A stretch of DNA of 64,000 nucleotides from Salinibacterium sp. ZJ450 (GTDB lineage: Bacteria; Actinomycetota; Actinomycetes; Actinomycetales; Microbacteriaceae), in NCBI RefSeq assembly GCF_011751885.2, contig NZ_CP061771.1:3100001-3164000 (forward strand), in the 5' to 3' direction. Numbering within the stretch: position 1 is the first letter of the stretch; every line of letters begins with the position of its first letter. Made by a program: the position numbers and the translations under genes. The notes beneath the pieces are model-generated. The model saw only the letters and a program-made list of their open reading frames with translations. It searched no databases and had not been told where the DNA came from. Positions 4,561 to 50,677 of this stretch are shown piece after piece.

Positions 4561-4562
4561 GA

Positions 4563-4643
4563 AATGTCGCGGCACGGATGTCGCAGAAGCGAATGTCGCG
4601 GTGCCGGATGTCGCGGCGCCCGGTTTGCCCCGGCGGGATGTCA
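4563..4643 (+). repeat. Cluster of ATGTCGC words upstream of lhr
   Basis: ATGTCGC occurs four times within 60 bp (near 4564, 4578, 4593 and 4608), and ATGTC once more near 4638. It is the densest patch of a word that recurs on both strands throughout the window. Units are spaced irregularly by about 14-30 bp, so this is neither a CRISPR array nor a perfect tandem repeat. Confidence 0.5.
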
Positions 4644-4666
4644 GCGGCATCCGTGAAGATAGAGCA

Positions 4667-9314
<4,648 letters not shown>

Positions 9315-17011: not shown

Positions 17012-17012
17012 G

Positions 17013-18125
17013 TCAGGCCACGGTCAGGAGGCCGGTTTCCACCGTGAGCCCCGGCCCGAACGCCATGGCCAGCACGCGCTCCCCCGACTCGGTGTCGGGC
17101 GCCTCCAGAATCTGCTTCAGCACGAACAGCACGGTGGCGCTCGACATGTTGCCGTAATCGCGCAGCGTCTGCCGCGACGGCACCAACTGCGCCTCGGTGA
17201 GCTCGAGCTTGGCCTCCACCTTGTCCAGGATGCTGCGGCCGCCGGGGTGGATCGCCCAGTGCGCGACATCCTCCTTGCGGCTGCCGTCGCCACTCAACAG
17301 CGGCGCGATCGCGCTCTCGATGTGCTCGTCGATGATGTGCGGCACGTAGGTGCTGAGCACCATTTCGAAGCCCTGATCGCCGATCTTCCAGGCCATGTCT
17401 GCCTCACCGACCGGGGTGATCACCGTCTCGAAGCCGTCCAGGTTGAACGCGCGCTCGCCAGACTGCGGCGGGCGGTGGCTGATGATCGCGGCGCCGGCGC
17501 CGTCGGCGAACAGCGACGCGGCCACGATCTGGTCGGGGTCGGTGGATGAGCGCACGTGCAGGGTGCAGACCTCGACGCTCACCACGAGCACGACGGCATC
17601 CGGGTCGGCCTCGCAGAGCTGCTTGGCCATCCGCAGCGCCGGCATGCTGGCGTAACAGCCCATGAAGCCGAGGTGATAGCGCTGCACGTCGACGCCGAGC
17701 CCGAGCTCGCGCACGATCAGGTAGTCGGGCCCCGGCGCGAAGAACCCGGTGCAGGACACCGTGATCACGTGGGTGATGTCGTGGGCGCCGACATCCGGGC
17801 AAGCGTCGATCGCCTTGCGCGCCGCCTCGACGAACAGCTTGCCGCCGCGATCGATGTATAGCTCGTTGCGCACCCGGGTGCCCGGCGAGAGCAGCAGCCG
17901 CCGGTCGCGGTCGAAGAACTGCGGGTCCTCGGACTGGCGGTCCCAGGTGAATTCGTCGATGACGCTGTGCCGGCGTTCGATGCCGGATGCGTCGAACGAG
18001 GCGCTGACCAGGCGCTGCGCGAGTCGGGTGAGGTCGGGTTGGGTGGCGAAAACGTCGCGCACTTCGGCTTGGATCAGCACGGTCTGCGGAACTGCGGTCT
18101 CAAGAGCTCTCAGCGTCACTGCCAT
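17013..18125 (-). CDS. Type III polyketide synthase
   Basis: This 370-residue chalcone-synthase-fold enzyme has the catalytic triad in place: Cys157 in GFMGCYAS, His293 in WAIHPGGRSILD and Asn326 in YGNMSSAT. Such enzymes condense a starter acyl-CoA with malonyl-CoA units to give resorcinols, pyrones or phloroglucinols. The operon order PKS, methyltransferase, FAD monooxygenase equals srsA-srsB-srsC, so a long-chain alkylresorcinol and its quinone, a membrane phenolic lipid, is the best guess. A flavin reductase gene is divergent from it across a 105-bp promoter region. Confidence 0.93.
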   Translation of the reverse strand: MAVTLRALETAVPQTVLIQAEVRDVFATQPDLTRLAQRLVSASFDASGIERRHSVIDEFTWDRQSEDPQFFDRDRRLLLSPGTRVRNELYIDRGGKLFVEAARKAIDACPDVGAHDITHVITVSCTGFFAPGPDYLIVRELGLGVDVQRYHLGFMGCYASMPALRMAKQLCEADPDAVVLVVSVEVCTLHVRSSTDPDQIVAASLFADGAGAAIISHRPPQSGERAFNLDGFETVITPVGEADMAWKIGDQGFEMVLSTYVPHIIDEHIESAIAPLLSGDGSRKEDVAHWAIHPGGRSILDKVEAKLELTEAQLVPSRQTLRDYGNMSSATVLFVLKQILEAPDTESGERVLAMAFGPGLTVETGLLTVA

Positions 18126-19953: not shown

Positions 19954-20847
19954 TCAGCGTTCGGCGGCGACCAGTTCGCGGACTGCCGGGGCGACCTCGG
20001 CGGCGAAGAGGTTGATTGTCGCGGCGTCGTCGCTGGCGAGGATGAACCCGGAGGTGCCATAGTCCAGCGCGATCTCGGCGGCTTGCTCGGCCCACTGCGC
20101 GGGCGGTCCCGAGAACAGGCCGGTTCCGGATGTCTGGAACCTGCCGTTGATGTTCAGCAGGCGCCGCACCGCCTTGGGGTCCCGGCCGGCGGCCTGCGCG
20201 CCCTCGTCGATCAGGTCGTTCATCCCGGCGAGCTCAGCCGGGCCACCTTTCAGATAGCCGAGCGAGGGCAGCCAACCGTCGCCGGCGCGGCCGGTGAGCC
20301 GCAGCATCCGGGGCTTGTACGCGCCGATCCAGACGCCGATGTCGTGCGCCGGCGCTGGGCCGCGCTTTGCTCCCGCGACCTGGTAATACTTACCGTCGAC
20401 CCGCACCCCACCGCGCTCGTCGGTGTTCCAGACCTCACGGATGATCCGGATCGCTTCCTCAAGCGCGTCGACTCCCTGGCCGGGAGTCAATCGCCGGCCG
20501 CCCATCGCCTCGATCGCGTCCCAGAAGCCGCCCGAGCCGATGCCGAGCTCGATCCGGCCGCCGCTCAGCAGGTCGAGCGACGCCGCGCTGCGTGCGAGCA
20601 TCACCGGGTTCCGCAACGGCAGGTTGGTGACGTTGGCGCTGATCCGGATCCGCTCGGTTCGGGCGGCGATGTAGGACATCAGCGTCCACGTGTCGTGGAA
20701 TCGCGGCTGGTACGGGTGGTCCTGGAAGGTGGCCAGGTCGAGGCCCGCCCGATCAGCGAGAACGGCGAGGTCAACCGCCTGCTGCGCGGGTTGGTTCAGC
20801 GGGGTGATGAATACCCCGAACTGCAGGTCGTGTCCGTAGTCGGTCAT
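19954..20847 (-). CDS. LLM-class flavin or F420-dependent oxidoreductase
   Basis: The 297-residue protein has the luciferase-like TIM barrel: DLATFQDHPYQPRFHDTW near the N-terminus, ASLDLLSGGRIELGIGSG in the middle and TGRAGDGWLPSL late. The SGGRIELGIGSG stretch is typical of F420 or FMN-dependent LLM enzymes. Its start overlaps the stop of the large LLM-BBE fusion gene (ATGA), so the two form an operon under the HxlR regulator. The substrate is unknown. Confidence 0.88.
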   Translation of the reverse strand: MTDYGHDLQFGVFITPLNQPAQQAVDLAVLADRAGLDLATFQDHPYQPRFHDTWTLMSYIAARTERIRISANVTNLPLRNPVMLARSAASLDLLSGGRIELGIGSGGFWDAIEAMGGRRLTPGQGVDALEEAIRIIREVWNTDERGGVRVDGKYYQVAGAKRGPAPAHDIGVWIGAYKPRMLRLTGRAGDGWLPSLGYLKGGPAELAGMNDLIDEGAQAAGRDPKAVRRLLNINGRFQTSGTGLFSGPPAQWAEQAAEIALDYGTSGFILASDDAATINLFAAEVAPAVRELVAAER

Positions 20848-22961
20848 GATGCTGCCTCCTCGGCGAGCGCGGCGGGCGCTGCGGGCGTGATCGGAAAGTT
20901 GTCGATGAACAGGTTGTCCGGGTCGAACTCAGCCTTGAGCTCGCGCAGCCGGGCCAGCGTCCTCGGCGGGAACGCGTCCTCAAGCCGCTCCGGATCGCGC
21001 TCGGTCTCGAAGCTCAGGTAAAGACCGTCCATAAACGGGTAGAGGGTCTCCCATTCGGCATTCAGCCGGGCGCGGTTGGAGCCCATCGCGCTGATCGCGA
21101 AGTTCGCGTCGCGGTGCGCGTAGGCGGTGGCATCCGGATCGATATCGGATGTCGCTCCCCCGGTCGCCCGGATCTGGAAGAAGTGCGTGACGCCGCTCTG
21201 CACGAGCCGGGCGGTCGCCGCGGCGAACTCCGGGCTGATGTGCCGGGTCAGGCCGGAGCGGCTGACCGGCTCGCCCCGGCCCTGGTTCGCGTCATCCTGA
21301 GCCTTCAGCAATGCGGCCGCGTACGGCAGCAGTTGCACGGACTGCTCGTAGAGCGGGGCGATCTGGGCGAACGGTTGCAGCTGCTCGATGATCGTGTCGG
21401 GATCATCCGAGTCGACCATGGCGAACACTTGCGCGATCATCGGCTGGCCGGGGCGCGGTGCCCCCATCAGCAGGAAGCTGGTGGTCTGCCGCGGCGCGGC
21501 CTCCTGGGCGGCGCCCCACTTCACCAGGAAGTCGGCGGCGTCCTCGGCGACGAAGACCAGCTGCGCCCAGCCGACGGCGGGCACCGCGGCGGCCTCGAAC
21601 TCGAACGCGGTGACGACGCCGAAGTTGGCGCCGGCGCCGCGGACTGCCCAGAACAGGTCGGGGTTCTCGGTGTCGCTGGCGCGAATCACCGTGCCGTCGA
21701 CCAGCACCATGTCGACGGCACGCAGGTGGTCGATCGCGAGGCCCCGGTTGCGGCCGAGGAAGCCGATGCCGCCGGTCGTGGCGAGCCCGCCGACGCCGAC
21801 CCCGCCGAAGTCGCCGGAGCTGATCGCCCAGCCGTGCGGCTCGAGCGCGGCCGCGACATCCTGCCACCGAGCTCCGGGGCCGATGCGCACGCGACGGCTG
21901 CTCTCATCGAGCACCTCGATGCGGTTCATCGCGGCGAGGGTGATGACGATGCCGCCGTCGTTGGTGGACCGGCCGCTGATGCCGTGCCCGCCGCTGCGCA
22001 GCGACAGCGGTAGGTGGGCGTGTTCGCGGGCGAACGCCAGCGCCGCGACGACATCGGTGGTGTTCCGGGCTGCTAACACCAGACCCGGCGCGCCACCGCG
22101 CATGTACGTTGACCGCAGCCGCGAGTATGCGGTGTCGCCGGGCTCGACGGCGATCTCGGCTAGCGCGGCGGGCAGTCCGTCGTAGTCGATACCCGGGCGG
22201 CGCTTCGCGCGCGCGGCGGTGCGGCGGGGTGCCCGCTCGGGTTCGGGTGCGGCGGCGCGGAGTGCCGGGATGACCTCACGCGCGAAGGCTTCGATCGCGT
22301 CGGGTTCGTCTGTGCGCAGGATGAACCCTGACACGCCTTCGGCGAGCAAGGAGACCAGGTCGATGGAGGGTTCGGTGACGGTGACCGTCCGGCGGATCTC
22401 GCGCGGGTCGCGGCGCAGGTCGCCGGCGGCGGCGTCGATGGCGGCGTTGGCCGCGCGCAGTTGCTCGGGGGCGGTGAGCGCCGTGTGCCAGCCGTCTGCC
22501 GCGCGGCCGGCGAGCTGCAGCATCCGCGGGTCGTCCCCGACGAGGTGGATGGGCACGTCGTGGGCGGGGGCCGGTCCGCGTTCGGTGCCGTCCAGACGGA
22601 CGTGGTCGCCGCTGTAGCGCAGCAGTCGAGAATCGTCGACACTCCACATCGCGCGCACGATGTCGAGCGTCTCATCGAGCGCATCCGGCTCGTCGCCGCT
22701 GAACGCGAGCTCGAGCCGACCGCCCGAAAGCAGATCGAGGCTGGCGGCCTGGCGGGCAAGCACGGCCGGGAACTCCGGAGTCGGCAGCGAGGCGGACAGA
22801 CGGATGCGCGTCGTGCGCGGGGCGATCCAGGACAGCAGCGTCCACGGCTCCAGCTCGCCGGCTTCGAAGCTGACGCTGTCGAAGCCGAGCCGCTCGCTGA
22901 GCTCGGCCAGATCGGGCATGGTGGTCGAGATGCCGAACTGCAGGGCGTGGCGGTAGGTCAT
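20844..22961 (-). CDS. Fusion of LLM oxidoreductase and FAD-linked (BBE-type) oxidase
   Basis: A 705-residue two-domain flavoprotein. Residues 1 to about 240 form a shortened luciferase-like domain (SLDLLSGGRLELAFSG, LAGRAADGWHTAL). A linker rich in Ala and Arg leads to a PCMH-type FAD-binding domain from about residue 255, with LSLRSGGHGISGRSTNDGG (His for covalent flavin), GVGVGGLATTGGIGFLGR, and a BBE C-terminus ending FDPDNLFIDN. The Cys of bicovalent BBE enzymes is absent (GDFGGVGV), so single His attachment is expected. ATG at 22961 follows GGAGACACC. An HxlR regulator is divergent. Confidence 0.85.
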   Translation of the reverse strand: MTYRHALQFGISTTMPDLAELSERLGFDSVSFEAGELEPWTLLSWIAPRTTRIRLSASLPTPEFPAVLARQAASLDLLSGGRLELAFSGDEPDALDETLDIVRAMWSVDDSRLLRYSGDHVRLDGTERGPAPAHDVPIHLVGDDPRMLQLAGRAADGWHTALTAPEQLRAANAAIDAAAGDLRRDPREIRRTVTVTEPSIDLVSLLAEGVSGFILRTDEPDAIEAFAREVIPALRAAAPEPERAPRRTAARAKRRPGIDYDGLPAALAEIAVEPGDTAYSRLRSTYMRGGAPGLVLAARNTTDVVAALAFAREHAHLPLSLRSGGHGISGRSTNDGGIVITLAAMNRIEVLDESSRRVRIGPGARWQDVAAALEPHGWAISSGDFGGVGVGGLATTGGIGFLGRNRGLAIDHLRAVDMVLVDGTVIRASDTENPDLFWAVRGAGANFGVVTAFEFEAAAVPAVGWAQLVFVAEDAADFLVKWGAAQEAAPRQTTSFLLMGAPRPGQPMIAQVFAMVDSDDPDTIIEQLQPFAQIAPLYEQSVQLLPYAAALLKAQDDANQGRGEPVSRSGLTRHISPEFAAATARLVQSGVTHFFQIRATGGATSDIDPDATAYAHRDANFAISAMGSNRARLNAEWETLYPFMDGLYLSFETERDPERLEDAFPPRTLARLRELKAEFDPDNLFIDNFPITPAAPAALAEEAAS

Positions 22962-23006
22962 GGTGTCTCCACTCTGCCGAACCGTGACGGCATCCGCCAA
23001 TTCACT

Positions 23007-23415: not shown

Positions 23416-24201
23416 TCACGCGGGAGCGTCGATGCCACGCTCCGCGAGCTCGAGGCTGATGTCCTCCCGCGCGCGGAAGGCGAGGTTGAGCACCTCCGTG
23501 GTGAGCAAACCGGGGAAGCGTGACGCGGGTGTGGCGATGGACACCGCCGCGATTCCGCGGCCGGACGCCCCGCGAACGGCCACCCCGATCGCGCAGACGC
23601 CACTCTCGGTCTCCTCCCGGTTGAGCGCGTAGCCCTGCCGTGCGATCCCGCGGAGCTCGCGACGCAACGCCGCGTAGTCGTCATCCGACAGCGCCTCGCC
23701 CGCGATGCTCGCCCCCTGCGATCGGTAGAGCCGCTCGAGCACTCGGTCGTCCACCGTCGCGAGCAGGGCCTTGCCGCCGGAGGCGAAGCGTGCGGGCAGC
23801 ACCTGACCCTGCCGGTTGCTCACCCGAAGCACGCTGGAGGACTCGACCGTGGCGAGGAATCGCACGGTTCCGCCGACGCGGATCATCAGGTTGACCGATT
23901 CATTCAGTCGGCCCGCGAGCATGTCGAGGTACGGATGCGCCACGTCGCGCAGTTCGCGCGTCCACGAGGTGCGCACCGGGCTGAGATCCATGCCCGGACC
24001 GGGCAAATAGGTGTGCGTCTCGTCCTGCACGGCAAAGCCGCGGTACACCAGCATCGACAGCAGCCGGTGCACCGTCGAGGGTGCGATGCCCAACTCAGTG
24101 GCGGCACTCGTCACTCGCAGGCTGCCCTGATCTCGCAGGAGCTGCAGCAGCCATAACGCTTTGTCGACCGAGTCGATCGCGTATGGAGGGCGGTGCTGCA
24201 T
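23416..24201 (-). CDS. IclR-family regulator of the Hpe-like operon
   Basis: The protein has an N-terminal winged HTH (AATELGIAPSTVHRLLSMLVYRGF) and a C-terminal IclR effector domain (LPARFASGGKALLATV, GYALNREETESGVCAIGVAVRG). It is divergent from the eight-gene carboxylase/phosphotransferase operon, so control of that operon by an aromatic ligand is likely. I prefer the ATG at 24201: the ATG five codons earlier at 24216 falls inside a palindrome that is probably its operator. Either start gives a complete family member. Confidence 0.88.
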   Translation of the reverse strand: MQHRPPYAIDSVDKALWLLQLLRDQGSLRVTSAATELGIAPSTVHRLLSMLVYRGFAVQDETHTYLPGPGMDLSPVRTSWTRELRDVAHPYLDMLAGRLNESVNLMIRVGGTVRFLATVESSSVLRVSNRQGQVLPARFASGGKALLATVDDRVLERLYRSQGASIAGEALSDDDYAALRRELRGIARQGYALNREETESGVCAIGVAVRGASGRGIAAVSIATPASRFPGLLTTEVLNLAFRAREDISLELAERGIDAPA

Positions 24202-24204
24202 CGA

Positions 24205-24227
24205 AGCATTCTGCACAAAAGAATGCT
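24205..24227. promoter_or_regulatory. 8-bp inverted repeat, probable IclR operator of the Hpe-like operon
   Basis: AGCATTCT (24205-24212) and AGAATGCT (24220-24227) are perfect reverse complements separated by 7 bp. The site lies between the IclR start and the first gene of the operon, 66 bp upstream of its ATG. Position and symmetry fit the binding site of a dimeric IclR regulator controlling both directions. Confidence 0.65.
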
Positions 24228-24292
24228 ATTGCCAATTCCGTTCTGCGCGCCCACAGTGAACCCAAACGAGCGGCATGTCATCAAGGAGGATG

Positions 24293-24805
24293 ATGGACAT
24301 CGATTTCGAGGAACTCGCGATTTTCGTCGAGACGCTGGAGAACACTGACTTCACCCACTTCTTGTACGAGAAGGGCGATGTGCGCATCGAGGTGCGGCGC
24401 GGCGGCGGCGATGTTCCCGCTATGCCGGCGTCCTCCCCCGCCTCAGCCAGCGCACCCGCGGCCGTTGTGAGTGACCCGCCCGTCCCGGCTACTGCCCCGG
24501 CTGCCGCCCCGGCGTCGGCCGCGCCGAGTCGCGTCGGGGCCGCACCCACCGAGGACGACATCGTGGTCGCCGCTCCCCTACTCGGCACGGTGTACCTGGC
24601 GCCCAAGCCCGGTGAGGCACGCTTCGTCGAGGTCGGCGCCACGGTCGCCCCAGAGTCGTCGCTCTGCATCGTCGAGGTCATGAAGCTGATGAACACCGTG
24701 CACGCCGGCACCGCCGGGATCGTCACCGCCATCCACGTCACCGACGGGCAACTGGTCGAGCACGGGCAGCCTCTGTTCAGCATCCGGGCGGACGCCGCCG
24801 CATGA
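24293..24805 (+). CDS. Biotin carboxyl carrier protein of the Hpe-like carboxylase
   Basis: The 170-residue protein has an AccB-like N-terminus, a long Ala/Pro-rich linker (residues about 45-85) and a biotinyl domain with VEVMKLMN, Lys131 being the biotinylation site. It carries carboxybiotin between the biotin carboxylase encoded next and the carboxyltransferase two genes on. ATG at 24293 follows AAGGAGG; earlier in-frame ATGs at 24275 and 24290 are less well placed. It is the first gene of an eight-gene operon. In context it matches one subunit of HpeCBA, which carboxylates 4-phospho-acetovanillone in Rhodococcus rhodochrous GD02. Confidence 0.88.
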   Translation: MDIDFEELAIFVETLENTDFTHFLYEKGDVRIEVRRGGGDVPAMPASSPASASAPAAVVSDPPVPATAPAAAPASAAPSRVGAAPTEDDIVVAAPLLGTVYLAPKPGEARFVEVGATVAPESSLCIVEVMKLMNTVHAGTAGIVTAIHVTDGQLVEHGQPLFSIRADAAA

Positions 24806-26157
24806 CCGGTCACCGCGTCTTCGTCGCCAACCGCGGTGAGATCGCGGTGCGAATCCTCGACGCCTGCGCGCGCCTCGGGGTGGAAACGGTGCTCGGCGCC
24901 TCGGCCGCCGACACCGACACGCTCGGCGCCCGCCGCGCGGACCGGACCGTGGTGATCGGTCCGGCGCGCTCGACCGACAGCTACCTCTCCATCCCCACCG
25001 TCGTGCACGCCGCCATCGCCACCGGATGCACCGCCCTGCACCCCGGCTACGGATTCCTCTCCGAGCAGCCCGAACTCGCCAGGCTCTGCGCCGAGAACGG
25101 CATCATCTTTATCGGGCCGACGGCCGAACAACTCGAGGCGCTCGGCGACAAACTGCGAGCCCGTGAGCTCGCGGCATCGTTGGGCGTTCCGCTTGCCCAC
25201 GGCGGCGAGGCCGACACCCTCGCCGAGGCAAATGCGCTCGCCGAGCAGATCGGCTACCCGGTGCTGATCAAGGCAGCGCACGGCGGAGGCGGGCGCGGCA
25301 TGAAGCTGGTCGAGGCCGCCGACGAACTCGAACACGCCTGGTCGGTTGCCTCGTCAGAGGCCGAGTCAGCATTCGGCGACGGCACCGTCTTCCTCGAGAG
25401 CTACATCCGCGATGCGAAGCACATCGAAGTGCAGATCCTCGGCGATGCGCACGGGCATCGAGTGCACCTCGGCGAGCGCGAATGCTCGGTGCAGCGCCGC
25501 TACCAGAAAGTGATCGAAGAGGCACCCTGCGCCGCCCTGTCCGCCGAGAACCGGCGACTGCTGCACGAGTCCGCGCTGCGCATCGCCGACGCGCTCGACT
25601 ACGTCAGCCTCGGCACCGTGGAGTTCCTCTACGACGTCGACCGCGAGCGGCTCAGCTTCCTCGAGGTCAACCCGCGGGTGCAGGTCGAGCATCCGGTCAC
25701 CGAGGCCGTCACCGGCGTGGACCTGGTGCGCGAACAGCTGCTCATCGCCTTCGGCGAGCCGCTCTCCTTCGAACAGGCCGACGTCACCGTGTCCGGTCAC
25801 GCCATCGAATGCCGCATCACCGCGCAGGATCCGGATGCCGATTTCCAGCCGTCACCCGGACGCGTGACTCGCTGGCGGCCACCCGCCACCGGCGGCATCC
25901 GGGTCGACTCCCACATCTACGAGGGGTACCTGTTCCCGCCGTACTACGACGCGCTGATGGGCAAGCTGATCGCGTTCGGCGCGGATCGCGCCGCCGCCGT
26001 GGAGCAGGTGCAGCGGGCGCTGGACCGGTTCGAGATCGCCGGGCCGCGCACCAATTTGCCGCTGCTGCAGGCGATCACCGCGCATCCGGATTTCACGGCC
26101 AACACGGTGACCACGCACTGGTTGGAAGGCATGCTCAAGGAGGCCGTCCATGGCTGA
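24802..26157 (+). CDS. Biotin carboxylase subunit of the Hpe-like carboxylase
   Basis: The 451-residue ATP-grasp enzyme is of AccC type. It has an N-terminal preATP-grasp domain (FVANRGEIAVRIL), HPGYGFLSEQPELA, the Gly-rich ATP loop KAAHGGGGRGMKLV, HIEVQILGD, and the catalytic stretch FLEVNPRVQVEHPVTE. It uses ATP and bicarbonate to carboxylate the biotin of the preceding carrier protein, whose stop it overlaps by 4 bp (ATGA). On sequence alone it could serve any acyl-CoA or pyruvate carboxylase; the operon assigns it to a hydroxyphenylethanone carboxylase. Confidence 0.93.
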   Translation: MTGHRVFVANRGEIAVRILDACARLGVETVLGASAADTDTLGARRADRTVVIGPARSTDSYLSIPTVVHAAIATGCTALHPGYGFLSEQPELARLCAENGIIFIGPTAEQLEALGDKLRARELAASLGVPLAHGGEADTLAEANALAEQIGYPVLIKAAHGGGGRGMKLVEAADELEHAWSVASSEAESAFGDGTVFLESYIRDAKHIEVQILGDAHGHRVHLGERECSVQRRYQKVIEEAPCAALSAENRRLLHESALRIADALDYVSLGTVEFLYDVDRERLSFLEVNPRVQVEHPVTEAVTGVDLVREQLLIAFGEPLSFEQADVTVSGHAIECRITAQDPDADFQPSPGRVTRWRPPATGGIRVDSHIYEGYLFPPYYDALMGKLIAFGADRAAAVEQVQRALDRFEIAGPRTNLPLLQAITAHPDFTANTVTTHWLEGMLKEAVHG

Positions 26158-27610
26158 CATCCGTCTGGTCGATGTGTCACTGCGCGACGGCAACCAGAGC
26201 CTCTGGGGCGCAACCGGCGTGACCAACAAGCTCGTCTCGGATGTCGCGCCGGCGCTCGGCCGCGTCGGATACCACGCGGTTGAGCTGATGACGAGCACGA
26301 TGTTCGCCACCGCGGTGCGCTACCACACCGAAGACCCCTGGCAGCGAGTGCGCGACGCGCACGCCGCGATGCCCGACACCACGCTCGGCTTCCTCACCAC
26401 CGGCAAGCGCTTCATCAGCTTCACCCGCACGCCCGACAACCTGTTCGAACTGGCCTTCGACCTGCTGCGGCGCAACGGGATCACCCGGCTCTGGGTGATC
26501 GATCCGATGCACAACATGGCCGACACCATCCGCACCGCCGAGATGGCGAAGCGTATCGGTTTCGACGAGGTGATCGGCGGCATTTGCTACAGCATCAGCC
26601 CGGTGCACACCGATGACTACTACCTCGACAAGATCGCACAGCTCGATGACACCGAGGCCGTCGACGGCCTCTATCTGAAAGACCCGGCCGGGCTGCTCAC
26701 CCCGCAGCGGGTGGCCGACATGGTGCCGCGGCTGAACGCCCGCCTGCGCAACAAGACCCTGAACGAACTGCACTCGCACTGCAACACCGGGCTGGCGCCG
26801 CTCACCCTGCTCGAAGGGGCAGACCAGGGCATGTCGATCCTGCACACCGCACTGCCGCCACTCGCAAACGGCGCGTCGCACACCAATGCGCTCCGCTTGG
26901 TCGAGAACCTCGCGGCCCGCGGCCACACCGTGAACGTCGACGTCGAGGCGATGGCCGAAGCCTCCGCGGTGCTCAGCCGGTTCGCCCGGCTGCACCGCTT
27001 GCCCACCGGGGTGCCCGCCGAATACGACGAGGTGTACTACCGGCACAACATCCCCGGCGGAGTGCTCTCTACCCTGCATCGGCAACTTGTCGAGATCGGT
27101 CAGGAGGCCCTGTTCCCGGCCGTGCTCGATGAGGCGGTGCACGTGCGTGAAGACCTCGGCTGGCCGATCGTGGTCACCCCGTTCGCCCAGTACATCGTCA
27201 CGCAGGCGACCATGAACGTGATGACGGGTGAGCGCTACGCCCGACTGTCCGACGAGATCATCGACCTTCTGCTTGGCGAGTTCGGCGAGATGCCTGGCCC
27301 GGTGAACCAGGACCTGCTCGACCGCGCGAGCAGTTCGCACCGGGCCCGCGAGCGGGAGAACCCGCCAGAGCCGCCGAGCCTCGCGGAACTGCGTCAGCGC
27401 TTCGGGATCGGCATCAGCGATGAAGACCTGCTGCTGCGGGCGCTCATGCCGGGCCAGCAGATGGACGCCATGGTCGAGCGGCGCGACAGCCCGCCCGGAG
27501 GCTCGCTGCGCACCCTGCTCGCCGGGCTCAATGGCGCGCCCGACGTTCGCTCGTTCAGCGTGACGAGTTCGACCAGCACCGTCACGGTGCAGAGAGGAAC
27601 CGGCTCGTGA
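26150..27610 (+). CDS. Carboxyltransferase subunit, OadA/pyruvate-carboxylase type
   Basis: The 486-residue protein has the HMGL-like TIM barrel of oxaloacetate decarboxylase alpha and pyruvate carboxylase (VSLRDGNQSLWG, YLKDPAGLLTP, ELHSHCNTGLAPLTLLEGADQG split around its metal-binding HSH). The PYC_OADA domain follows (YRHNIPGGVLSTL, VVTPFAQYIVTQATMNV). It transfers CO2 from carboxybiotin to an enolisable methyl ketone-like acceptor. That chemistry fits carboxylation of the acetyl side chain of phosphorylated 4-hydroxyacetophenone or acetovanillone. It lacks a fused biotinyl domain, consistent with the separate carrier. It overlaps the preceding gene by 8 bp. Confidence 0.9.
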   Translation: MADIRLVDVSLRDGNQSLWGATGVTNKLVSDVAPALGRVGYHAVELMTSTMFATAVRYHTEDPWQRVRDAHAAMPDTTLGFLTTGKRFISFTRTPDNLFELAFDLLRRNGITRLWVIDPMHNMADTIRTAEMAKRIGFDEVIGGICYSISPVHTDDYYLDKIAQLDDTEAVDGLYLKDPAGLLTPQRVADMVPRLNARLRNKTLNELHSHCNTGLAPLTLLEGADQGMSILHTALPPLANGASHTNALRLVENLAARGHTVNVDVEAMAEASAVLSRFARLHRLPTGVPAEYDEVYYRHNIPGGVLSTLHRQLVEIGQEALFPAVLDEAVHVREDLGWPIVVTPFAQYIVTQATMNVMTGERYARLSDEIIDLLLGEFGEMPGPVNQDLLDRASSSHRARERENPPEPPSLAELRQRFGIGISDEDLLLRALMPGQQMDAMVERRDSPPGGSLRTLLAGLNGAPDVRSFSVTSSTSTVTVQRGTGS

Positions 27611-28467
27611 CCGACTCGACGACTGCCCCCATCGAGCTGGAACGGCTGGCCGAGGCGACCGGCTGGGTGTTGGACGTCGACGGATGCCTCGTCAGCACGA
27701 GCCGCGCCGGCGGGGCAGGCGGCGTGGCAATCCCCGGCGCGATCGAGTTCGTCTCGGCGCTGCGGGACTCTGGCCGCTCGATCCGGGTCTGCACGAACGC
27801 CTCGCAGAAGTCGCCGCGCGAGTACGCCCAGCACCTGCGCGGCCTCGGCTTCGACATCCACGACGACGAATTCCTGACCGCCGGCAGCGCGGCCGCGCTG
27901 TATCTGGCCGACCACCACCCGGACGGGCGCATCTTGGTGCTCGGTGAAAGCGGGCTGCTGGAGCCGATCCGCGAGCTGGGCCTCGAGGTGGTCACCGACC
28001 CGTCGGACGAGGCGGATGTCGTCGTGGTCGGCGCCGACGATCACTACAGCACCCAGGATCTGAACGCCGCCTGCCTGGCCGTCGCCGATCGTGGCAGCCC
28101 GCTGTACGTCACCGTGAACACGCCGTGGTTTCACGGCGGTCAGGGCCGTTCGGTCTGCGTGTCGGCCGCGATCGCGCACGCCATCACCTGGGTGACCGGG
28201 GTGCAGCCGACCGTGCTCGGCAAGCCGTCGCCCGCGCTCGCCGAAACCCTGCGCCGCCAACTCGGCGGCGCCAACAAGACTCTGGCGGTGGTGGGAGACG
28301 CTCCGGCGGAACTCCGACTGGCGCAAGAAATGGACGCCTTCGGGCTCCTGGTGCTGACCGGTGCCACCCGCGACAGCGACGTCGCGGGACTCGGCCCCGA
28401 GCTGCGCCCGCACCTCGTGGCCGACAGCGTTCGCCACATCAACACCCTGCTATCCCCCTATCTGTGA
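27607..28467 (+). CDS. hpeD: HAD-IIA (NagD-like) phosphatase, HpeD-like
   Basis: The HAD nucleophile motif is VLDVDGCLV (Asp23, with Asp25 as general acid), motif II is VCTNAS, motif III is in LGKPSPALAE, and motif IV is VVGDAPAELRLA. The inserted cap is of the IIA type. In the Rhodococcus Hpe pathway HpeD dephosphorylates the carboxylated intermediate, and this is the only phosphatase in the operon. The gene overlaps the carboxyltransferase stop (GTGA), indicating coupled translation. A housekeeping NagD-like role is possible but less likely in this position. Confidence 0.85.
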   Translation: MTDSTTAPIELERLAEATGWVLDVDGCLVSTSRAGGAGGVAIPGAIEFVSALRDSGRSIRVCTNASQKSPREYAQHLRGLGFDIHDDEFLTAGSAAALYLADHHPDGRILVLGESGLLEPIRELGLEVVTDPSDEADVVVVGADDHYSTQDLNAACLAVADRGSPLYVTVNTPWFHGGQGRSVCVSAAIAHAITWVTGVQPTVLGKPSPALAETLRRQLGGANKTLAVVGDAPAELRLAQEMDAFGLLVLTGATRDSDVAGLGPELRPHLVADSVRHINTLLSPYL

Positions 28468-28479
28468 AGGAGCACCACG

Positions 28480-30315
28480 ATGTCCGCTTCCGACCGTTTC
28501 CCGTTCTTCCGTGAGTTCCAGCCGCCCGCCGGGGCCGAGGGGTGGGAGCGGATGTATCCGTACTTCCTCACCTCGCAGCCGGAGGGTGAGCGGCTCGAAG
28601 ACGCCCGCCTCTGGTTCGCCGACACCATGCACTGGTCGCGCGCGGTGTACCCGCTCGACAGCATCGGCGCCGAAGCGGTCTACCTCGGCGCTGGCCAGAA
28701 CAGCGCCCGCATCTTCGCGCTGCCCACCTCCCTCGGCCTGGACATGCGGGTCGTCAACGGATACGTGTACATCTCGCCCACAGGCATCACCGACCCCGAC
28801 TTGATCAATGAACGGCTCGTCCACTTCCAGGAGCGCGCAGGCTACTACTTCGCAAACTGGGAGGAGCTGTACGAGAAGTGGAAGGCGAAGATGAGCGCCG
28901 TCGTCGACACGATGCGGGCCATCGACTTCCCGGCCCTCGCCGAGTACGAGCCGATCGAGGTCGTCACCGAAGCCCGCGGCCGGTCCACCGCCTGGGACCT
29001 GATCGCCGGCTACCACCAGCTCATCGACGACTTCTTCGTCGCCTGGCAGCACCACTTCGAGTTCCTCAACCTGGGCTACGGCGGCTACATCACCTTCTTC
29101 CAAACCTGTAAGCAGTTCTTCCCCGAAATCTCCGACCAGGCGGTTGCGCGAATGGTCGCCGGTGTCGACGTGCTCGCATTCCGCCCAGATGACGAGCTGC
29201 GCGGGCTAGCGCGCAAGGCCGTCGAACTCGGCGTCGACGACATCGTGACCCGTCGCGATGACCCGGCGGCGATCGTCGCCGCGCTGCGCGACACTGAGCA
29301 CGGCCGGGCGTGGATCGACGCGCTCGAGACCGCGAAAGACCCATGGTTCAACTATTTCGCCGAGTACGGCTTCCTGCACGACCAGGACACCTGGCTGTCG
29401 AACCCGTCCATCCCGTTCGCGGGCATCGCCCGCTACATCCAGATGCTGCAGGGCGGTGAGAACATTGCGCGGGATGTCGCGAAGCTGCGTGCCGAGCGCG
29501 ACGAGATCGTCGCCGAGTACCGCGGCCTGCTGTCCGACGACGAGGCGGCGCAGTTCGACGGCATGCTGCAACTCGCGCGCACGGTGTTCCCGTTCATCGA
29601 GGAACACAACATCTACGTCGAGCACTGGACCCATTCGGTGTTCTTCCAGAAGCTCCGCGAACTGGCCGCACGCCTGGTCGAGGCCGGCTTTTTCGAGGAC
29701 GTGGAAGACATGTACCTGCTGAACCGGTTCGAACTGGACGAGGTGCTGTCCGACGTGGTCGCGTCACACGTGATCGGCGTTCCCGCCCGCGGCGTGCAGA
29801 AGTGGCGGGCCGAGGTCGCCGCGCGACGGGACATTATGACCGCGCTGCGCACGCAGCCGGCCGCTCCCGCCCTCGCAACCCCGCCGGACGAGATCACTGA
29901 TCCGTTCGCGATCATGAACTACGGCGTCACGACCGAGCGCATCCGCGGCTGGCTCGGCCAGACCGGCGGCGGCGAGGGCGCACTCGCAGGAGCCGCGGCA
30001 TCCCCCGGAGTCGTCGAGGGCGTCGCCCGCGTCATCCTGACCGAAAAAGACCTGCCGCAGTTGCAACCGGGCGAGATTCTCGTCGCGCCGATCACCGCCC
30101 CGTCGTGGGGTGCGGCGTTCTCGGTGGCATCCGCGGTAGTGACCGACATCGGCGGCATGATGTGCCACGCCGCGATCGTCTGCCGCGAATACGGGTTGAC
30201 CGCCGTGGTCGGCACCGGCTTCGCGACCACCCGCATCGCGACGGGTCAACGGATCAGGGTCAACGGCGACGACGGCACGGTGACCATCATCGGTGAAGCA
30301 GAGAAGGCAGCATGA
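28480..30315 (+). CDS. Phosphotransferase subunit with PEP-utilising mobile (phospho-His) domain, Hpe-like
   Basis: A 611-residue protein. Residues 1 to about 480 form a large helical region of unknown fold specific to this subfamily (SRAVYPLDSIGAEAVYLG, HHFEFLNLGYGGYI). The last 120 residues form the PEP-utilisers mobile domain, with a phosphorylatable His563 in DIGGMMCHAAIVCREYG. The size and C-terminal domain match the alpha subunit of phenylphosphate synthase and the large subunit of HpeHI and CreHI. These take a phosphoryl group from ATP via the partner and place it on a phenolic hydroxyl. ATG follows AAGGAG; the partner gene overlaps its stop by 4 bp. A paralogue lies at 50678. Confidence 0.9.
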   Translation: MSASDRFPFFREFQPPAGAEGWERMYPYFLTSQPEGERLEDARLWFADTMHWSRAVYPLDSIGAEAVYLGAGQNSARIFALPTSLGLDMRVVNGYVYISPTGITDPDLINERLVHFQERAGYYFANWEELYEKWKAKMSAVVDTMRAIDFPALAEYEPIEVVTEARGRSTAWDLIAGYHQLIDDFFVAWQHHFEFLNLGYGGYITFFQTCKQFFPEISDQAVARMVAGVDVLAFRPDDELRGLARKAVELGVDDIVTRRDDPAAIVAALRDTEHGRAWIDALETAKDPWFNYFAEYGFLHDQDTWLSNPSIPFAGIARYIQMLQGGENIARDVAKLRAERDEIVAEYRGLLSDDEAAQFDGMLQLARTVFPFIEEHNIYVEHWTHSVFFQKLRELAARLVEAGFFEDVEDMYLLNRFELDEVLSDVVASHVIGVPARGVQKWRAEVAARRDIMTALRTQPAAPALATPPDEITDPFAIMNYGVTTERIRGWLGQTGGGEGALAGAAASPGVVEGVARVILTEKDLPQLQPGEILVAPITAPSWGAAFSVASAVVTDIGGMMCHAAIVCREYGLTAVVGTGFATTRIATGQRIRVNGDDGTVTIIGEAEKAA

Positions 30316-31409
30316 CAATCCTCACCGATTCCACGGCCCCGGAGGCGTCGGACCTGAGCCTGGTGGGCGGCAAGGCCATCGGGCTTGCCAGAATGACCGC
30401 GGGCGGCATCCCCGTCGCCCCATGGCTGACGGTGTCCACCCGGGTGCACCGCGATTTTCTCGAACAGACACAACTGAACGCTCACATCGAAAGCGTGGTC
30501 GAGGGGATCGACTGGCACTCGCAAGACAGCCTGGCCGAGGCCGAGCAGACGATCGCGGCGGTCTTCGCCGAAACGCCGGTTCCCCCGGCCATCGCGGAGG
30601 ACATCGCCGCCGGCTACCGCGGACTCGCGGAGCGGATCGGGGTGCCAGAGCTCTCGGTCGCGGTTCGCTCCTCGGCGACCGCGGAGGACACCCCAGACTC
30701 GAGCTTCGCCGGCGAGTATGAAACATACGTCGGCATGGTCGGCGCCGAGCAGGTCATCGAGCACGTCAAGCTGTGCTGGGCGAGCGGATTCACCGCGCAC
30801 GCCATGGCCTACGCGCACGACCGGGGCTTCTCTCCGCTCGCGGTGTCGATGGCGGTGGTCGTGCAGAAAACCGTCAAGGCGCGCGCGGCCGGGGTCATGT
30901 TCACCCTCAGCCCGGCCACCGGCGACCGCTCGCGGATCGTGGTCGAGGCCAGCTGGGGAATCGGGCTGGCCGTCGTCGGCGGCGAGGTCACCCCCGACCG
31001 CTACGCGGTGGACAAGGTAAGTCTCAACATCCTCGAGCGCATCCCTGGCGACAAGAGAATCGAGTACCTCGACGGCCAGCGGTCGACCCCGGTCGAGGAA
31101 TCCCGACGGGCAGTGCTCTGCCTGTCCGACAGCGAGGTGCTCGAGCTGGCGCGGCTCGGGAAGACGCTGGAGAAGCAGCAGGGCGTTCCGCAGGACATCG
31201 AGTTCGCGATCGATCGGGAATTGCCAGACGGGGCGAACATCATCCTGCTGCAGTGTCGCCCCGAGACCGTGTGGTCCACGCGCAAGCGGGCGGCGGCCGC
31301 CGCGTTGCCGCTGATCGACCAGGTCGCCGCGAGCGTGTTCGGGCTCGGCAAGCCCGGGTCGGCTGGCAGACGCGACCTCGTCCTGGGGGAGGTGGGCCAT
31401 GCCCGCTGA
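30312..31409 (+). CDS. Phosphotransferase ATP-grasp subunit (PEP/pyruvate-binding domain), Hpe-like
   Basis: The 365-residue protein is the N-terminal PPDK/PEP-synthase ATP-binding domain on its own. It shows VGGKAIGLARMTAGGIPVAP, AVRSSATAEDTPDSSFAGEYETY, KLCWASGFTAHAMAYA, VQKTVKARAAGVMFTLSP and a closing QDIEFAIDREL...LLQCRPETVWS. It binds ATP and phosphorylates the His of the preceding subunit, like the beta subunit of phenylphosphate synthase (about 40 kDa). There is no PEP/pyruvate barrel domain, so it is not a complete PEP synthase. It overlaps the next gene by 11 bp. Confidence 0.9.
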   Translation: MTILTDSTAPEASDLSLVGGKAIGLARMTAGGIPVAPWLTVSTRVHRDFLEQTQLNAHIESVVEGIDWHSQDSLAEAEQTIAAVFAETPVPPAIAEDIAAGYRGLAERIGVPELSVAVRSSATAEDTPDSSFAGEYETYVGMVGAEQVIEHVKLCWASGFTAHAMAYAHDRGFSPLAVSMAVVVQKTVKARAAGVMFTLSPATGDRSRIVVEASWGIGLAVVGGEVTPDRYAVDKVSLNILERIPGDKRIEYLDGQRSTPVEESRRAVLCLSDSEVLELARLGKTLEKQQGVPQDIEFAIDRELPDGANIILLQCRPETVWSTRKRAAAAALPLIDQVAASVFGLGKPGSAGRRDLVLGEVGHAR

Positions 31410-32745
31410 CGCACTCTGGGACGCCGAGAACGACACCCGGCCATGGGCAGACACCCAAGCCGCGCAGGCGCAACAGCTTCCCGGCCTCATCCGGCGGCTG
31501 TCGTCGGCGTCGGACGGGTGGCGGGAACACCTGAAGCGGGCGGATGTCGCGGGCGCGGCATCCCTGGAGAGCCTTGCCAGCATCCCGTTCACCACCAAGG
31601 ACGACCTGCGGGCGAGCCAGGCTGAGACCACGAGTGGCACGCCACTCGGCAGCCTGCAGGCCGCACCCACTGGTGAGCTGGTGCAGATCATCGCGTCCTC
31701 CGGGACGACCGGCACCCCAGTGTTCTTCGGCCTGACCGAGGGCGACTGGGCGCGCTGGAAGTTCAGTATCGGCAATGCCTTCTTCACCGCCGGGGTGCGC
31801 CGCCCGAGCATCGTGGCGTTGACCACCGGCATGCCCATGGTTGCGGGTGGCATCGCCTACGCCGATGCCATTCGGGAAGCCGGCGGAACGCTCGCCTGGG
31901 TCGGCGGACAAACTGTGCCGCGCACCGCGACGATTCTCGAGCGACTGGGCGTCGATGTCTTCGTCGGCACGGCCTCGTACGCGACCTTCTTCGCCGATCG
32001 GATCGCCGAAGAGCTCGGCAGGCCAGCCACCGAACTCTCGGTGCGCACAATCATCGGCGGCGGCGAGCCCGGGCTCGGCGTGCCCGAGATCCGCGAGAAG
32101 GTCGCGGCCGCGTGGGGGGCCACCCGCGTGAGCGAGATCATGGGGCTCGGCGACGTGCTGCCGGCGATGTGGGCGGAGTGCCCGGTGGGCCAGGGCATGC
32201 ACTTCACGGCCGCGCCGAGTGTGCTGGTCGAGCTGATCGACCCGGACAGCGGGGAGCACGTGCCATGGGACTCGGGAGCGACCGGTGAGGCGGTGTACAC
32301 GACCCTCCTGCGCGAGGCGTCGCCCGTGGTGCGGTTCCGCTCGCGGGACCATATGGAGGTCACCGGGATGGACTGCGCCTGCGGGCGTACCTCGCCGACC
32401 GTGCGCTGCATCGGCCGCACCGACGACATGCTCATCTACAAGGCGATGAACGTGTTCCCCTCGGCGATCCGCGAGGTCGTTCTGGGCGCCAGTGAAGGAC
32501 GACTGACAGGAGCAATGCGCATTCGCAAGGAGACCGCCGCTCAGGTGCGGTTCGATGACCCGATTCCGCTGGAGATCGAGGTCAGCGACGCCATGCCTGC
32601 GGCCGAACGGGACAGATTGCTGGCCACCATTGCGGAGCAGGTGCGACAGCAGCTTCGCGTGCGGGTCAGCCCCGAAGCGCTGCAACCCGGCACGATCCCG
32701 GTGGGCGCATACAAGAACGCACTCACCTACGTGGGGGAGCAATGA
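31399..32745 (+). CDS. Phenylacetate-CoA-ligase-like AMP-binding enzyme
   Basis: The 448-residue protein resembles PaaK. The P-loop SSGTTGTPVFF is at residues 100-110, an adenylate-binding motif lies in EIMGLGDVLPA, and the C-terminal hinge and lid include IGRTDDMLIYKAMNVFPSAIREV. A CACGRTSP segment resembles the CxCGR motif of the family. It would activate an aromatic acid as CoA thioester. In Sphingobium SYK-6 VceA acts on vanilloyl acetate at the equivalent step, and here the predicted substrate is 4-hydroxybenzoylacetate or its vanilloyl analogue. It overlaps both neighbours. Confidence 0.85.
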   Translation: MPADALWDAENDTRPWADTQAAQAQQLPGLIRRLSSASDGWREHLKRADVAGAASLESLASIPFTTKDDLRASQAETTSGTPLGSLQAAPTGELVQIIASSGTTGTPVFFGLTEGDWARWKFSIGNAFFTAGVRRPSIVALTTGMPMVAGGIAYADAIREAGGTLAWVGGQTVPRTATILERLGVDVFVGTASYATFFADRIAEELGRPATELSVRTIIGGGEPGLGVPEIREKVAAAWGATRVSEIMGLGDVLPAMWAECPVGQGMHFTAAPSVLVELIDPDSGEHVPWDSGATGEAVYTTLLREASPVVRFRSRDHMEVTGMDCACGRTSPTVRCIGRTDDMLIYKAMNVFPSAIREVVLGASEGRLTGAMRIRKETAAQVRFDDPIPLEIEVSDAMPAAERDRLLATIAEQVRQQLRVRVSPEALQPGTIPVGAYKNALTYVGEQ

Positions 32746-33614
32746 CGACGGTTGACATCAACGCCCTCGAGGCGATCGACATACACGTGCACATCGACAT
32801 GGACGACCATGGCCATGCATCGCTGCCCGACCACCTGATGGAGGGCGCGCAAGCGCACTTCCAGTCCTCGGGAGGCATTCCCAAGCTGGCGGATATCGCT
32901 GCCTTCTACCGCGAGCGAAAGATGGCCGCCGTCGTCTTCACTGTCGACTCGGAGTCCGTAACCGGCCAACGCGCCATCTCGAACGATGAGATCGCCGACG
33001 GCGCCGCGCAACACTCCGATGTGCTCATTCCGTTCGGCAGCATCGACCCCGCCAAGGGTAGTGCCGCAGTGGATGAGGCCCGACGGTTGGTGACGGAACG
33101 CGGCATCCGCGGCTTCAAACTGCATCCGAACCTGCAGGCGTTTTTCCCGAACGAGCGGAGCGTGTATCCGTTCTACGAGCAAATCGAGCAGTTGAACGTG
33201 CCGATCATCTTCCACACCGGACAAAGCGGTGTCGGCTCCGGGCTGCACGGGGCTGGCGGACTGCGGCTGAAGTATTCCAATCCTCTCCATATCGACGACG
33301 TCGCGGTGGACTTTCCGGATCTGCGCATCGTGATGGCGCATCCGTCCTTCCCTTGGCAGGATGAAGCGCTCGCTGTGGCGGCGAAGAACCCGAACGTATA
33401 CATCGACCTGTCGGGGTGGTCACCGAAGTACTTCCCACCCAACCTCGTGCAGTATGCGAACAGCCTCCTGAAGGATCGGGTGCTCTTCGGGTCGGACTAT
33501 CCGCTGCTCACGCCCGACCGCTGGATTGCCGACTTCGACAAGCTCGAGATCAAACCCGAGGTGCGGCCGCTGATCATGAAGCAGAACGCGGTGCGTCTGC
33601 TCAGGCTCGACTAG
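32742..33614 (+). CDS. Amidohydrolase, probable hydroxyaryl-beta-ketoacyl-CoA hydrolase
   Basis: This 290-residue COG2159-type metal hydrolase has the N-terminal HxH (AIDIHVHIDMDDHGH, His15 and His17), GFKLHPNLQAF, IIFHTGQSG, VMAHPSFPWQDEA and LFGSDYPLL with the late Asp. Related amidohydrolases (for example CouO of Rhodococcus jostii RHA1) cleave 4-hydroxyphenyl-beta-ketoacyl-CoA to hydroxybenzoate and acetyl-CoA. That is the C-C bond cleavage expected as the last step of this operon. It is the last gene, overlapping the CoA ligase by 4 bp (ATGA). A possible hairpin (GCGGCC...GGCCGC, 33614-33632) follows. Confidence 0.82.
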   Translation: MTTVDINALEAIDIHVHIDMDDHGHASLPDHLMEGAQAHFQSSGGIPKLADIAAFYRERKMAAVVFTVDSESVTGQRAISNDEIADGAAQHSDVLIPFGSIDPAKGSAAVDEARRLVTERGIRGFKLHPNLQAFFPNERSVYPFYEQIEQLNVPIIFHTGQSGVGSGLHGAGGLRLKYSNPLHIDDVAVDFPDLRIVMAHPSFPWQDEALAVAAKNPNVYIDLSGWSPKYFPPNLVQYANSLLKDRVLFGSDYPLLTPDRWIADFDKLEIKPEVRPLIMKQNAVRLLRLD

Positions 33615-48180: not shown

Positions 48181-48256
48181 TTGGCAGGCCTCGCGCGCCT
48201 CGGTGAGCCAGACTGTGGGAACCGAACCTGCACCGGGAAAGAACATAGGAGTTCAC

Positions 48257-50619: not shown

Positions 50620-50677
50620 CGTTCCACCCTCTGCTCCATTCACGGCTCACTGTCGAGCCAGACCCGAAAGGATCGCT

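Follow-up and report, generated by a model that had tools for sequence, protein, structure and literature searches.

A stretch of 64,000 nucleotides from Salinibacterium sp. ZJ450 (contig NZ_CP061771.1, positions 3,100,001 to 3,164,000; hereafter the window) carries an eight-gene operon on the forward strand (24275-33614) that encodes the enzyme set of the Hpe and Acv pathways of aromatic-ketone degradation. We propose that this is a meta-branch operon, which probably converts 3-hydroxyacetophenone to 3-hydroxybenzoate. The proposal draws on the co-occurrence of related operons with genes of the gentisate route, on the kinship of the operon's IclR-family regulator with the regulator of a gentisate cluster, and on the trees of its kinase and carboxyltransferase. 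Judged from its sequences, the operon belongs to a clade with its own gene order and regulator link; we met no prior description of this group as a separate clade.

The operon and its predicted chemistry

The IclR-family gene (23416-24216, reverse strand; Pfam HTH_IclR and IclR_C) diverges from the operon across a 58-base promoter/operator region (24217-24274). The eight genes encode, in order, a biotin carboxyl carrier protein (BCCP; C, 24275-24805; Biotin_lipoyl, motif EVMKLM, TIGR00531 at 112.7 bits, near its housekeeping cut-off of 115.2); a biotin carboxylase (A, 24802-26157; Biotin_carb_N/CPSase_L_D2/Biotin_carb_C); an OadA/PycB-like carboxyltransferase (CT; B, 26150-27610; PYC_OADA and HMGL-like, motifs YLKDP and HSHC); a HAD-IIA phosphatase (D, 27607-28467; motif DVDG, TIGR01460 at 105.6 bits, above the cut-off of 100.15); a kinase subunit with substrate-binding and swivel (His) parts (H, 28480-30315; motif TDIGGMMCH, the PEP-utilizers Pfam family and, above cut-off, NF006153, a family named 'hypothetical protein'); an ATP-grasp (PPDK_N) kinase subunit (I, 30312-31409; PF01326 at 314.7 bits, PDB 9goj with E 6e-66); a PaaK-type AMP-forming CoA ligase as analogue of E (31399-32745; motif SSGTTG, NF041878 and the PaaK family TIGR02155 both below cut-off); and an Amidohydro_2 protein (F, 32742-33614; motif HVH, PF04909 at 178 bits), which would be a beta-ketoacyl-CoA hydrolase of the HpeF type. 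The motifs are the catalytic ones expected for these families. Six of the seven junctions overlap (by 4, 8, 4, 4, 11 and 4 bases), the HAD/kinase junction being a 12-base gap, and the coding bias (high third-position GC) is consistent with all eight genes; the one-strand, nearly all-overlapping layout with a divergent IclR gene that a first-pass annotation had described is therefore confirmed. Two of the three genomes of the genus hold the operon, seven of the eight products of the second copy being 85-93% identical to those of the window and the BCCP 63%, which argues that the arrangement is not due to chance.

The same annotation had placed an Hpe/Acv-type aromatic-ketone pathway in a Microbacteriaceae genome, and this is borne out by the shared enzyme set and by an F 55% identical to that of a GD02-type locus. 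Its reading of the PEP-synthase-like pair as a phenol dikinase rather than a housekeeping phosphoenolpyruvate (PEP) synthase also stood up when the products were compared with housekeeping PEP synthase and with pyruvate and acyl-CoA carboxylases, since all of the curated cut-offs were missed (PEP synthase, 282 versus 598 bits; PycB, 286 versus 402; OadA, 268 versus 757; AccC, 545 versus 627). The pair consists of a PPDK_N subunit and a subunit with the swivel motif T/SxxGGxxxH, the combination that defines two-component phenol dikinases; PPDK_N occurs at four further places in the genome, one of them inside a Cre-type cluster of the window. The Cre (4-cresol) and Pps (phenol) kinases belong to the same two-component family but fall on separate branches from the window's clade in the kinase tree, and the Cre and Pps loci examined, unlike the operon, contain no biotin carboxylase genes. 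Searches of solved structures with the H subunit, the CT and the hydrolase returned distant relatives only and no ligand-bound Hpe-type structure.

A chemistry of phosphorylation, carboxylation, dephosphorylation, CoA activation and hydrolysis, as read from gene content, is well supported. What was observed is the gene content with its motifs, the clade and its gene order, the co-occurrence and the kinship of the regulator; from these we infer the individual catalytic steps and the substrate. The H+I dikinase would phosphorylate the phenolic hydroxyl of 3-hydroxyacetophenone by way of a phosphohistidine on H. The resulting 3-phosphoacetophenone would be carboxylated at its acetyl methyl group by the biotin enzyme (C-A-B), and removal of the phosphate by D, the HAD phosphatase, would yield 3-hydroxybenzoylacetate. 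Activation of this product to its CoA ester would fall to the PaaK-type ligase, and cleavage of the ester into 3-hydroxybenzoate and acetyl-CoA to the amidohydrolase F. 3-Hydroxybenzoate would then pass to a 3-hydroxybenzoate 6-hydroxylase and a gentisate 1,2-dioxygenase, both encoded at C1:204693-208994 beside a close paralogue of the operon's IclR gene. HpeHI has rates of 0.74 U/mg on acetovanillone, 0.69 U/mg on 4-hydroxyacetophenone and 0.038 U/mg on 3-hydroxyacetophenone, the last about 5% of the acetovanillone rate (Table 3 of PMC12167813); since it already uses the 3-hydroxy isomer slowly, a meta-specialised kinase family would be a small step.

The clade of related operons

A CT alignment searched against 84,980 species genomes recovered 473 relatives, the best 80 of which were taken further. 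Among these 80, 25 (L035-L058 and L067) have a CT 58-65% identical to that of the window, and the other 55 reach at most 48%. In the kinase tree (55 rows, a quick method, with support from the Shimodaira-Hasegawa-like approximate likelihood ratio test, SH-aLRT, only), the window and 23 loci form a clade of 24 rows (SH-aLRT 100); outside it lie a 26-row group that includes the GD02-like locus L031 (97), three Cre rows (100) and one Pps row, the deep order among the clade, Hpe, Cre and Pps groups being left open by a tree with flagged long branches. The CT tree, which covers 85 of 109 rows, unites the 27 rows of the clade (100) beside a 44-row group of Hpe- and MarK-type rows (92). Within the clade, the actinobacterial rows (minus those of the window's genus) make up one subclade (99) and the pseudomonadotan rows another (98), a pattern that does not point to frequent exchange between the phyla. 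The hosts are Actinomycetota (Micromonospora, Georgenia, Arthrobacter, Microbispora, Nocardioides, Nocardia, Nonomuraea, Streptomyces, Corynebacterium and others) and Pseudomonadota (Aromatoleum, Eoetvoesiella, Hydrogenophaga, Devosia, a Rhodobacteraceae metagenome-assembled genome (MAG) and a Burkholderiales MAG). Closer to the window, no CT above 41% identity was found outside the genus among 99 relatives searched, and the CT of one genome of the same family (G027) is identical to that of a Cnuibacter physcomitrellae plasmid.

The gene order C-A-B-D-H-I is kept in 21 of the 25 clade loci and runs on as C-A-B-D-H-I-E-F in the window. Three of the exceptions (L046, L049 and L051) run into contig ends; the fourth, L058, starts within its CT gene and continues through B and D to a 4HBT thioesterase, and the next 10 kb downstream contain no kinase genes. 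In the locus of Georgenia sp. SYP-B2076 (L048), C-A-B-D-H-I is preceded by another kinase pair in the order I, H (about 2183-5100).

Comparison with the Hpe type used L031, a locus on a Rhodococcus sp. JS3073 plasmid, as a stand-in for Rhodococcus rhodochrous GD02, and L029 as a second Hpe-type locus. L031 runs H, I, C, A, B, D, an acetoacetyl-CoA-synthetase-like E and the amidohydrolase F, and its I subunit is near-identical over its full length (780 bits) to PDB 9goj, an entry labelled 'phosphoenolpyruvate synthase' that is presumably the HpeI crystal structure published at 1.8 A (PMC12167813). A is 62-71% identical to the clade members compared and 49-52% to L031 and L029, and D is 45-58% identical within the clade and 34-36% to the same two loci. 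Nineteen kinase positions are fixed differently between the 24 clade rows and 19 Hpe-type rows (including W56-S57-R58 versus F/Y-P-E), as are nine CT positions (including T306, V347 and D378 versus Q, M and R); L031 agrees with the clade at three of these kinase positions and at two of these CT positions. The position preceding the catalytic His was tried as a family separator and rejected, being Cys in 13 and Ser in 10 of the 23 clade rows with the motif.

The Hpe operon of GD02 (hpeHICBADEF) has the same set as the window, namely a two-part dikinase, a three-part biotin carboxylase, a HAD phosphatase, a CoA ligase and an amidohydrolase, and the first three of these are likewise encoded together in the window. 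It differs in sequence (separate clades; H 46% and CT 41% identical), in having its kinase genes first (H-I-C-A-B-D, the order of the complete two-part-kinase loci outside the clade, for example L029, L031, L059, L065 and L066), in its acetoacetyl-CoA-synthetase-like ligase HpeE, in whose place the window has the PaaK-type enzyme, and in regulation, the window's IclR protein being nearest to that of a gentisate cluster. Kinase grouping, CT grouping and gene order all set the window apart. For C, A, B, D, H and I, identities to the products of L029 and L031 range from 34 to 52%; with L031 alone the range is 36-49%, C aligning over 79 of 176 residues, and the window's ligase has no match there. 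F is 54-55% identical to F of both loci. The identification of the operon with the Hpe operon itself, made in the first-pass annotation, is not upheld given these identities, the separate clade, the other order and the other ligase family.

Other known systems resemble the operon in part. For the Acv operon of Sphingobium lignivorans SYK-6 (acvABCDEF with VceAB), likened here by description only, the reported order is that of Hpe. MarK-type clusters, which have a single-component kinase (Novosphingobium aromaticivorans), share carboxylase and HAD phosphatase homologues (L028, L030, L034, L063 and L114) and have, next to C-A-B-D, a Tm-1-like ATP-binding protein at the position of the Hpe kinase pair, by its place presumably MarK; in the CT tree these clusters group with the Hpe types, outside the window's clade. 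The XccABC/p-ethylphenol cluster of Aromatoleum aromaticum EbN1, known here by description, is reported to include a biotin carboxylase for 4-hydroxyacetophenone with kinase homologues nearby (PMC9618137); the clade member A. toluclasticum differs in having an EbdAB set in front.

Several further loci came to light. Two genomes of the window's own family (L008 in G047, L009 in G013) have CTs that group with the GD02 type, so Hpe-type genes may occur in Microbacteriaceae too. MarK-type kinase, carboxylase and HAD genes lie on plasmids of Pseudomonas putida YC-AE1 (L028) and Sphingomonas bisphenolicum (pBAR1, L030), both of which we take to be degraders of bisphenol A, of which 4-hydroxyacetophenone is a product. 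Plasmid pA of Rhodococcus pyridinivorans P23 (L032, 866-13171) has a different carboxylase cluster, in which two pieces annotated as PEP-synthase-like accompany a thiolase, an OB-fold protein and a tyrosine-phosphatase-like one; it may encode one more pathway of the kinase-carboxylase-phosphatase kind, acting on another ketone. Thermomicrobiota-type loci (L069, L061, L062 and L071) combine kinase H (twice in L069) and a PaaK-type ligase with C, B and D.

The modules for the last steps vary within the clade. Among its 25 loci, an AcsA-type ligase is in view in 15, F in 11 and both in eight; the PaaK-type ligase is found in the window and in L043, L052 and L054 (57-60% identical to the window's). 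The Corynebacterium pollutisoli locus has a 3-oxoacid CoA-transferase with F, that of A. toluclasticum a thiolase-family gene, and that of the Rhodobacteraceae MAG a short-chain dehydrogenase/reductase (SDR), a 4HBT thioesterase and a beta-keto-acid cleavage enzyme that scores 229 bits against a cut-off of 382. All would fit one kind of intermediate, an aroyl-acetate (a beta-keto acid), and because these unrelated end modules do so, carboxylation of a methyl ketone is supported.

Association with gentisate genes

Lower-pathway genes were surveyed in 42 genomes, 26 with a clade operon and 16 with Hpe-type kinases, with Corynebacterium glutamicum as control. A full-length match to gentisate dioxygenase is present in 24 of the 26 clade genomes versus three of the 16 Hpe-type genomes (Fisher P = 1.9e-6), and a 3-hydroxybenzoate 6-hydroxylase (E <= 1e-60) in 22/26 versus 2/16 (P = 9.6e-6; the G506 copy has an inner TGA), these and the following P value treating genomes as independent. 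The two genes lie at most 6 kb apart in 20 of the 26 clade genomes (counted by eye). The hydroxylase query was a protein of genome G002. Its closest PDB entry is 4bjy (E 1e-126), which carries the name 'probable salicylate monooxygenase' and is in our understanding the RHA1 3-hydroxybenzoate 6-hydroxylase; the best NCBIfam match of the query is 3-hydroxybenzoate 6-monooxygenase (371 bits, cut-off 459). Across the window's order, gentisate dioxygenase (E <= 1e-50) occurs in 28 of 396 genomes, the window's own included; of the 12 clade members whose names place them in this order, 10 have it, versus 27 of 395 (P = 6.6e-10). At the stricter E <= 1e-85, the hydroxylase occurs in 16 of the 396, again including the window's own.

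A PobA-like match (4-hydroxybenzoate 3-hydroxylase; E < 1e-100) was found in 25/26 clade and 14/16 Hpe-type genomes, and because this control is near-equal in both sets, genome incompleteness does not explain the difference in gentisate genes. PobA was rejected as a discriminating marker on the same counts; above its curated cut-off it occurs in 5/26 versus 9/16 genomes, a difference that may just mirror phylum. The benzoate dioxygenase alpha subunit was rejected as a marker tracking the clade, reaching its cut-off in 3/26 clade genomes and 1/16 Hpe-type genomes and having no match in the window's genome.

In the genome of the window, the hydroxylase (C1:204693-205880, 55% identical to the G002 homologue) and the gentisate 1,2-dioxygenase (C1:207975-208994) adjoin an IclR gene (C1:203800-204585) that diverges from the hydroxylase gene. 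Its product is the nearest to the window's IclR protein among nine IclR paralogues in the genome (60% identical, versus 47% for the next and at most 32% for the others); the 47% paralogue lies near FAD-binding oxidoreductase-like and transporter-like genes (named by eye). Eight related IclR proteins encoded beside gentisate genes in other genomes are 45-55% (five) or 40-43% (three) identical to that of the operon, those beside other clade operons 39-48% and the two of the window's Cre-type cluster 26-29%. As the window's regulator is closer to its own gentisate-cluster paralogue than to regulators of other clade operons, we read it as probably recruited from the gentisate system. The sequence AGAATGCTATTGCC in the 58-base promoter region resembles AGAATTCTAGTGCC upstream of the gentisate-cluster IclR gene (local alignment score 35, as high in 0/500 single-base shuffles); a shared operator of two IclR-controlled promoters is only suggested by this, the aligned stretch taking in the homologous IclR start codons.

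Two pseudomonadotan members bear on the same association. In the Devosia MAG, L051 (C, A, B and the start of D) and L143 are identical over a 5252-base overlap and hence form one 25.9-kb contig, on which an ABC transporter and a LuxR/MalT-type regulator separate the operon part from genes for a gentisate dioxygenase (270 bits, cut-off 442), for isomerase- and hydrolase-like proteins and for a 3-hydroxybenzoate 6-monooxygenase (595 bits, cut-off 459). A. toluclasticum has, elsewhere in its genome, a gentisate dioxygenase (257/442), a maleylacetoacetate-type isomerase and a 3-hydroxybenzoate 6-monooxygenase above cut-off (715 bits).

A number of observations weigh against a 3-hydroxybenzoate and gentisate route. 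The Hpe-type set was hand-picked (16 of 22 loci) and 12 of its 16 genomes are MAGs, and the clade genomes are not independent, including six of Arthrobacter and three of Georgenia. The family cut-off for gentisate dioxygenase was reached in only three of the 42 genomes, most matches, that of the C. glutamicum control among them, falling below it. The window genome's own hydroxylase (368/459 bits) and dioxygenase (263/442) have the expected family as their best match yet stay below its cut-off, so that both actinobacterial 6-hydroxylases put to NCBIfam fall short (371 and 368 of 459). The genomes of L044 and L053 contain neither the dioxygenase (a match of E 6e-4 only in L044) nor the hydroxylase, and those of L043 and L058 have no hydroxylase match. 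In the window's genome, operon and gentisate genes are unlinked, lying about 0.9 Mb (if the replicon is circular) or 2.9 Mb apart. A PobA-like gene in the window and in nearly all clade genomes makes use of 4-hydroxybenzoate possible, and no assay of a clade enzyme came up in a literature search that covered a minority of subscription journals and no preprints.

Alternative substrates and wider meaning

An operon of the Hpe/Acv type for 4-hydroxyacetophenone or acetovanillone, ending in 4-hydroxybenzoate or vanillate, was the substrate reading of the first-pass annotation; the clade would then differ from Hpe by history and gene order only. We consider this unlikely, and less probable than conversion of the 3-hydroxy isomer, because of the gentisate association and the kinship of the regulator with that of the gentisate cluster. 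The shared enzyme set, the relatively high identity of F and the PobA-like genes would be accounted for, as would the swivel Cys before the catalytic His, which is described for HpeH and present in the window though not clade-wide; but the other six products are distant from L029 and L031 and fall in separate clades, 19 kinase positions are fixed differently (L031 itself sharing the clade's residue at three of them), and A. toluclasticum has weak PobA matches only. Eoetvoesiella caeni, moreover, has a MarK-type cluster (L114) in addition to its clade-type operon, which suggests that the two serve different jobs.

Another meta-hydroxylated aryl ketone ending in gentisate or 3-hydroxybenzoate, such as 2,5-dihydroxyacetophenone (giving gentisate directly) or 3-hydroxypropiophenone, would share the same gene association and offer the kinase an open meta hydroxyl. 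We regard this as improbable, since 2,5-dihydroxyacetophenone would not need the 3-hydroxybenzoate 6-hydroxylase present in most clade genomes, and since HpeHI had no detectable activity on 2-hydroxyacetophenone in the assays reported in PMC12167813, so that an ortho hydroxyl may be a hindrance.

Unsubstituted acetophenone, which the kinase would convert to an enol phosphate and the biotin enzyme to benzoylacetate, as proposed for acetophenone carboxylase (Apc, through phosphoenol-acetophenone; PMC5214803), is a very doubtful substrate even though EbdA and EbdB genes precede the A. toluclasticum operon, because the conserved HAD phosphatase would be left without an obvious job, characterised two-component relatives phosphorylate phenols (PMC12167813), the benzoate dioxygenase alpha subunit is rare in the clade and unmatched in the window's genome, and the A. 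toluclasticum regulator is of another type than the two-component systems predicted at the ethylbenzene/acetophenone genes of A. aromaticum (PMC4729919).

The genes directly before C-A-B-D-H-I in A. toluclasticum are an SDR, EbdA (2149 bits, cut-off 2000), EbdB (749, cut-off 740), two further genes in the places of EbdC and EbdD (by position only) and the thiolase-family gene; this EbdA is the only ethylbenzene-dehydrogenase alpha subunit above cut-off in the genome, and an XylR_N/V4R/sigma-54 regulator lies downstream of the operon. If the substrate is again 3-hydroxyacetophenone, an ethylbenzene-dehydrogenase-type molybdoenzyme may make the alcohol from 3-ethylphenol, because the quinone methide on which p-ethylphenol hydroxylases depend cannot arise from a meta-phenol.

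The surroundings of the operon in the window give no substrate clue, neither upstream, where genes for a fusion of a luciferase-like monooxygenase (LLM) with an FAD oxidoreductase and a type III polyketide synthase set lie, nor downstream (GapDH-like and LLM genes). The fusion (LLM and FAD_binding_4/BBE, 718 aa, 20844-23000) has an HxlR regulator before it and a stand-alone LLM gene after it (19954-20847), and type III polyketide synthase, methyltransferase and FAD monooxygenase genes are consecutive at 15114-18125. Further right lies a complete Cre-type (4-cresol) cluster (48203-57253; P450, PPDK_N and PEP-utilizers kinase subunits, SDR, 2Fe-2S ferredoxin, reductase, HD protein and aldehyde dehydrogenase) in the order found on plasmids of Rhodococcus ruber Y14 and R. 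oxybenzonivorans, so that, with the ketone operon, the window holds two different phenol-dikinase pathways. In front of it, between two IclR genes, is the PobA-like 4-hydroxybenzoate 3-hydroxylase gene (46131-47324; 392 bits, cut-off 539), and beyond it, on the reverse strand (58012-63170), are genes named by eye as 4-hydroxyphenylacetate 3-monooxygenase-like, flavin-reductase-like, aldehyde dehydrogenase and LLM; the window's right-hand part resembles an island of aromatic catabolism.

The Hpe pathway has been described as rare, with four further complete syntenous clusters (PMC9618137), and an earlier survey found kinase and carboxylase genes clustered in 52 of 836 cases, as cited in PMC13101465, a count that may include members of the clade. 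Our literature search, within the coverage given above, met no paper joining 3-hydroxyacetophenone with 3-hydroxybenzoate, bacteria and degradation, and none of the papers listed for 3-hydroxyacetophenone, for 3-ethylphenol and for gentisate with hydroxyacetophenone described the pathway, as judged by titles and abstract openings. What emerges from the best 80 of 473 relatives is a second, differently ordered and separately evolving version of an Hpe-like operon in about two dozen species of two phyla. That it amounts to a dedicated meta-hydroxyaryl-ketone pathway of Actinomycetota and Pseudomonadota, from 3-hydroxyacetophenone to 3-hydroxybenzoate and gentisate and extended in A. toluclasticum to anaerobic growth on 3-ethylphenol, is an idea we put forward tentatively. 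If true, it would explain bacterial degradation of 3-hydroxyacetophenone and would provide dikinases and carboxylases with meta specificity, of use in the valorisation of lignin or smoke phenols; the regioselectivity of the kinases could be tested directly by comparing two related families.

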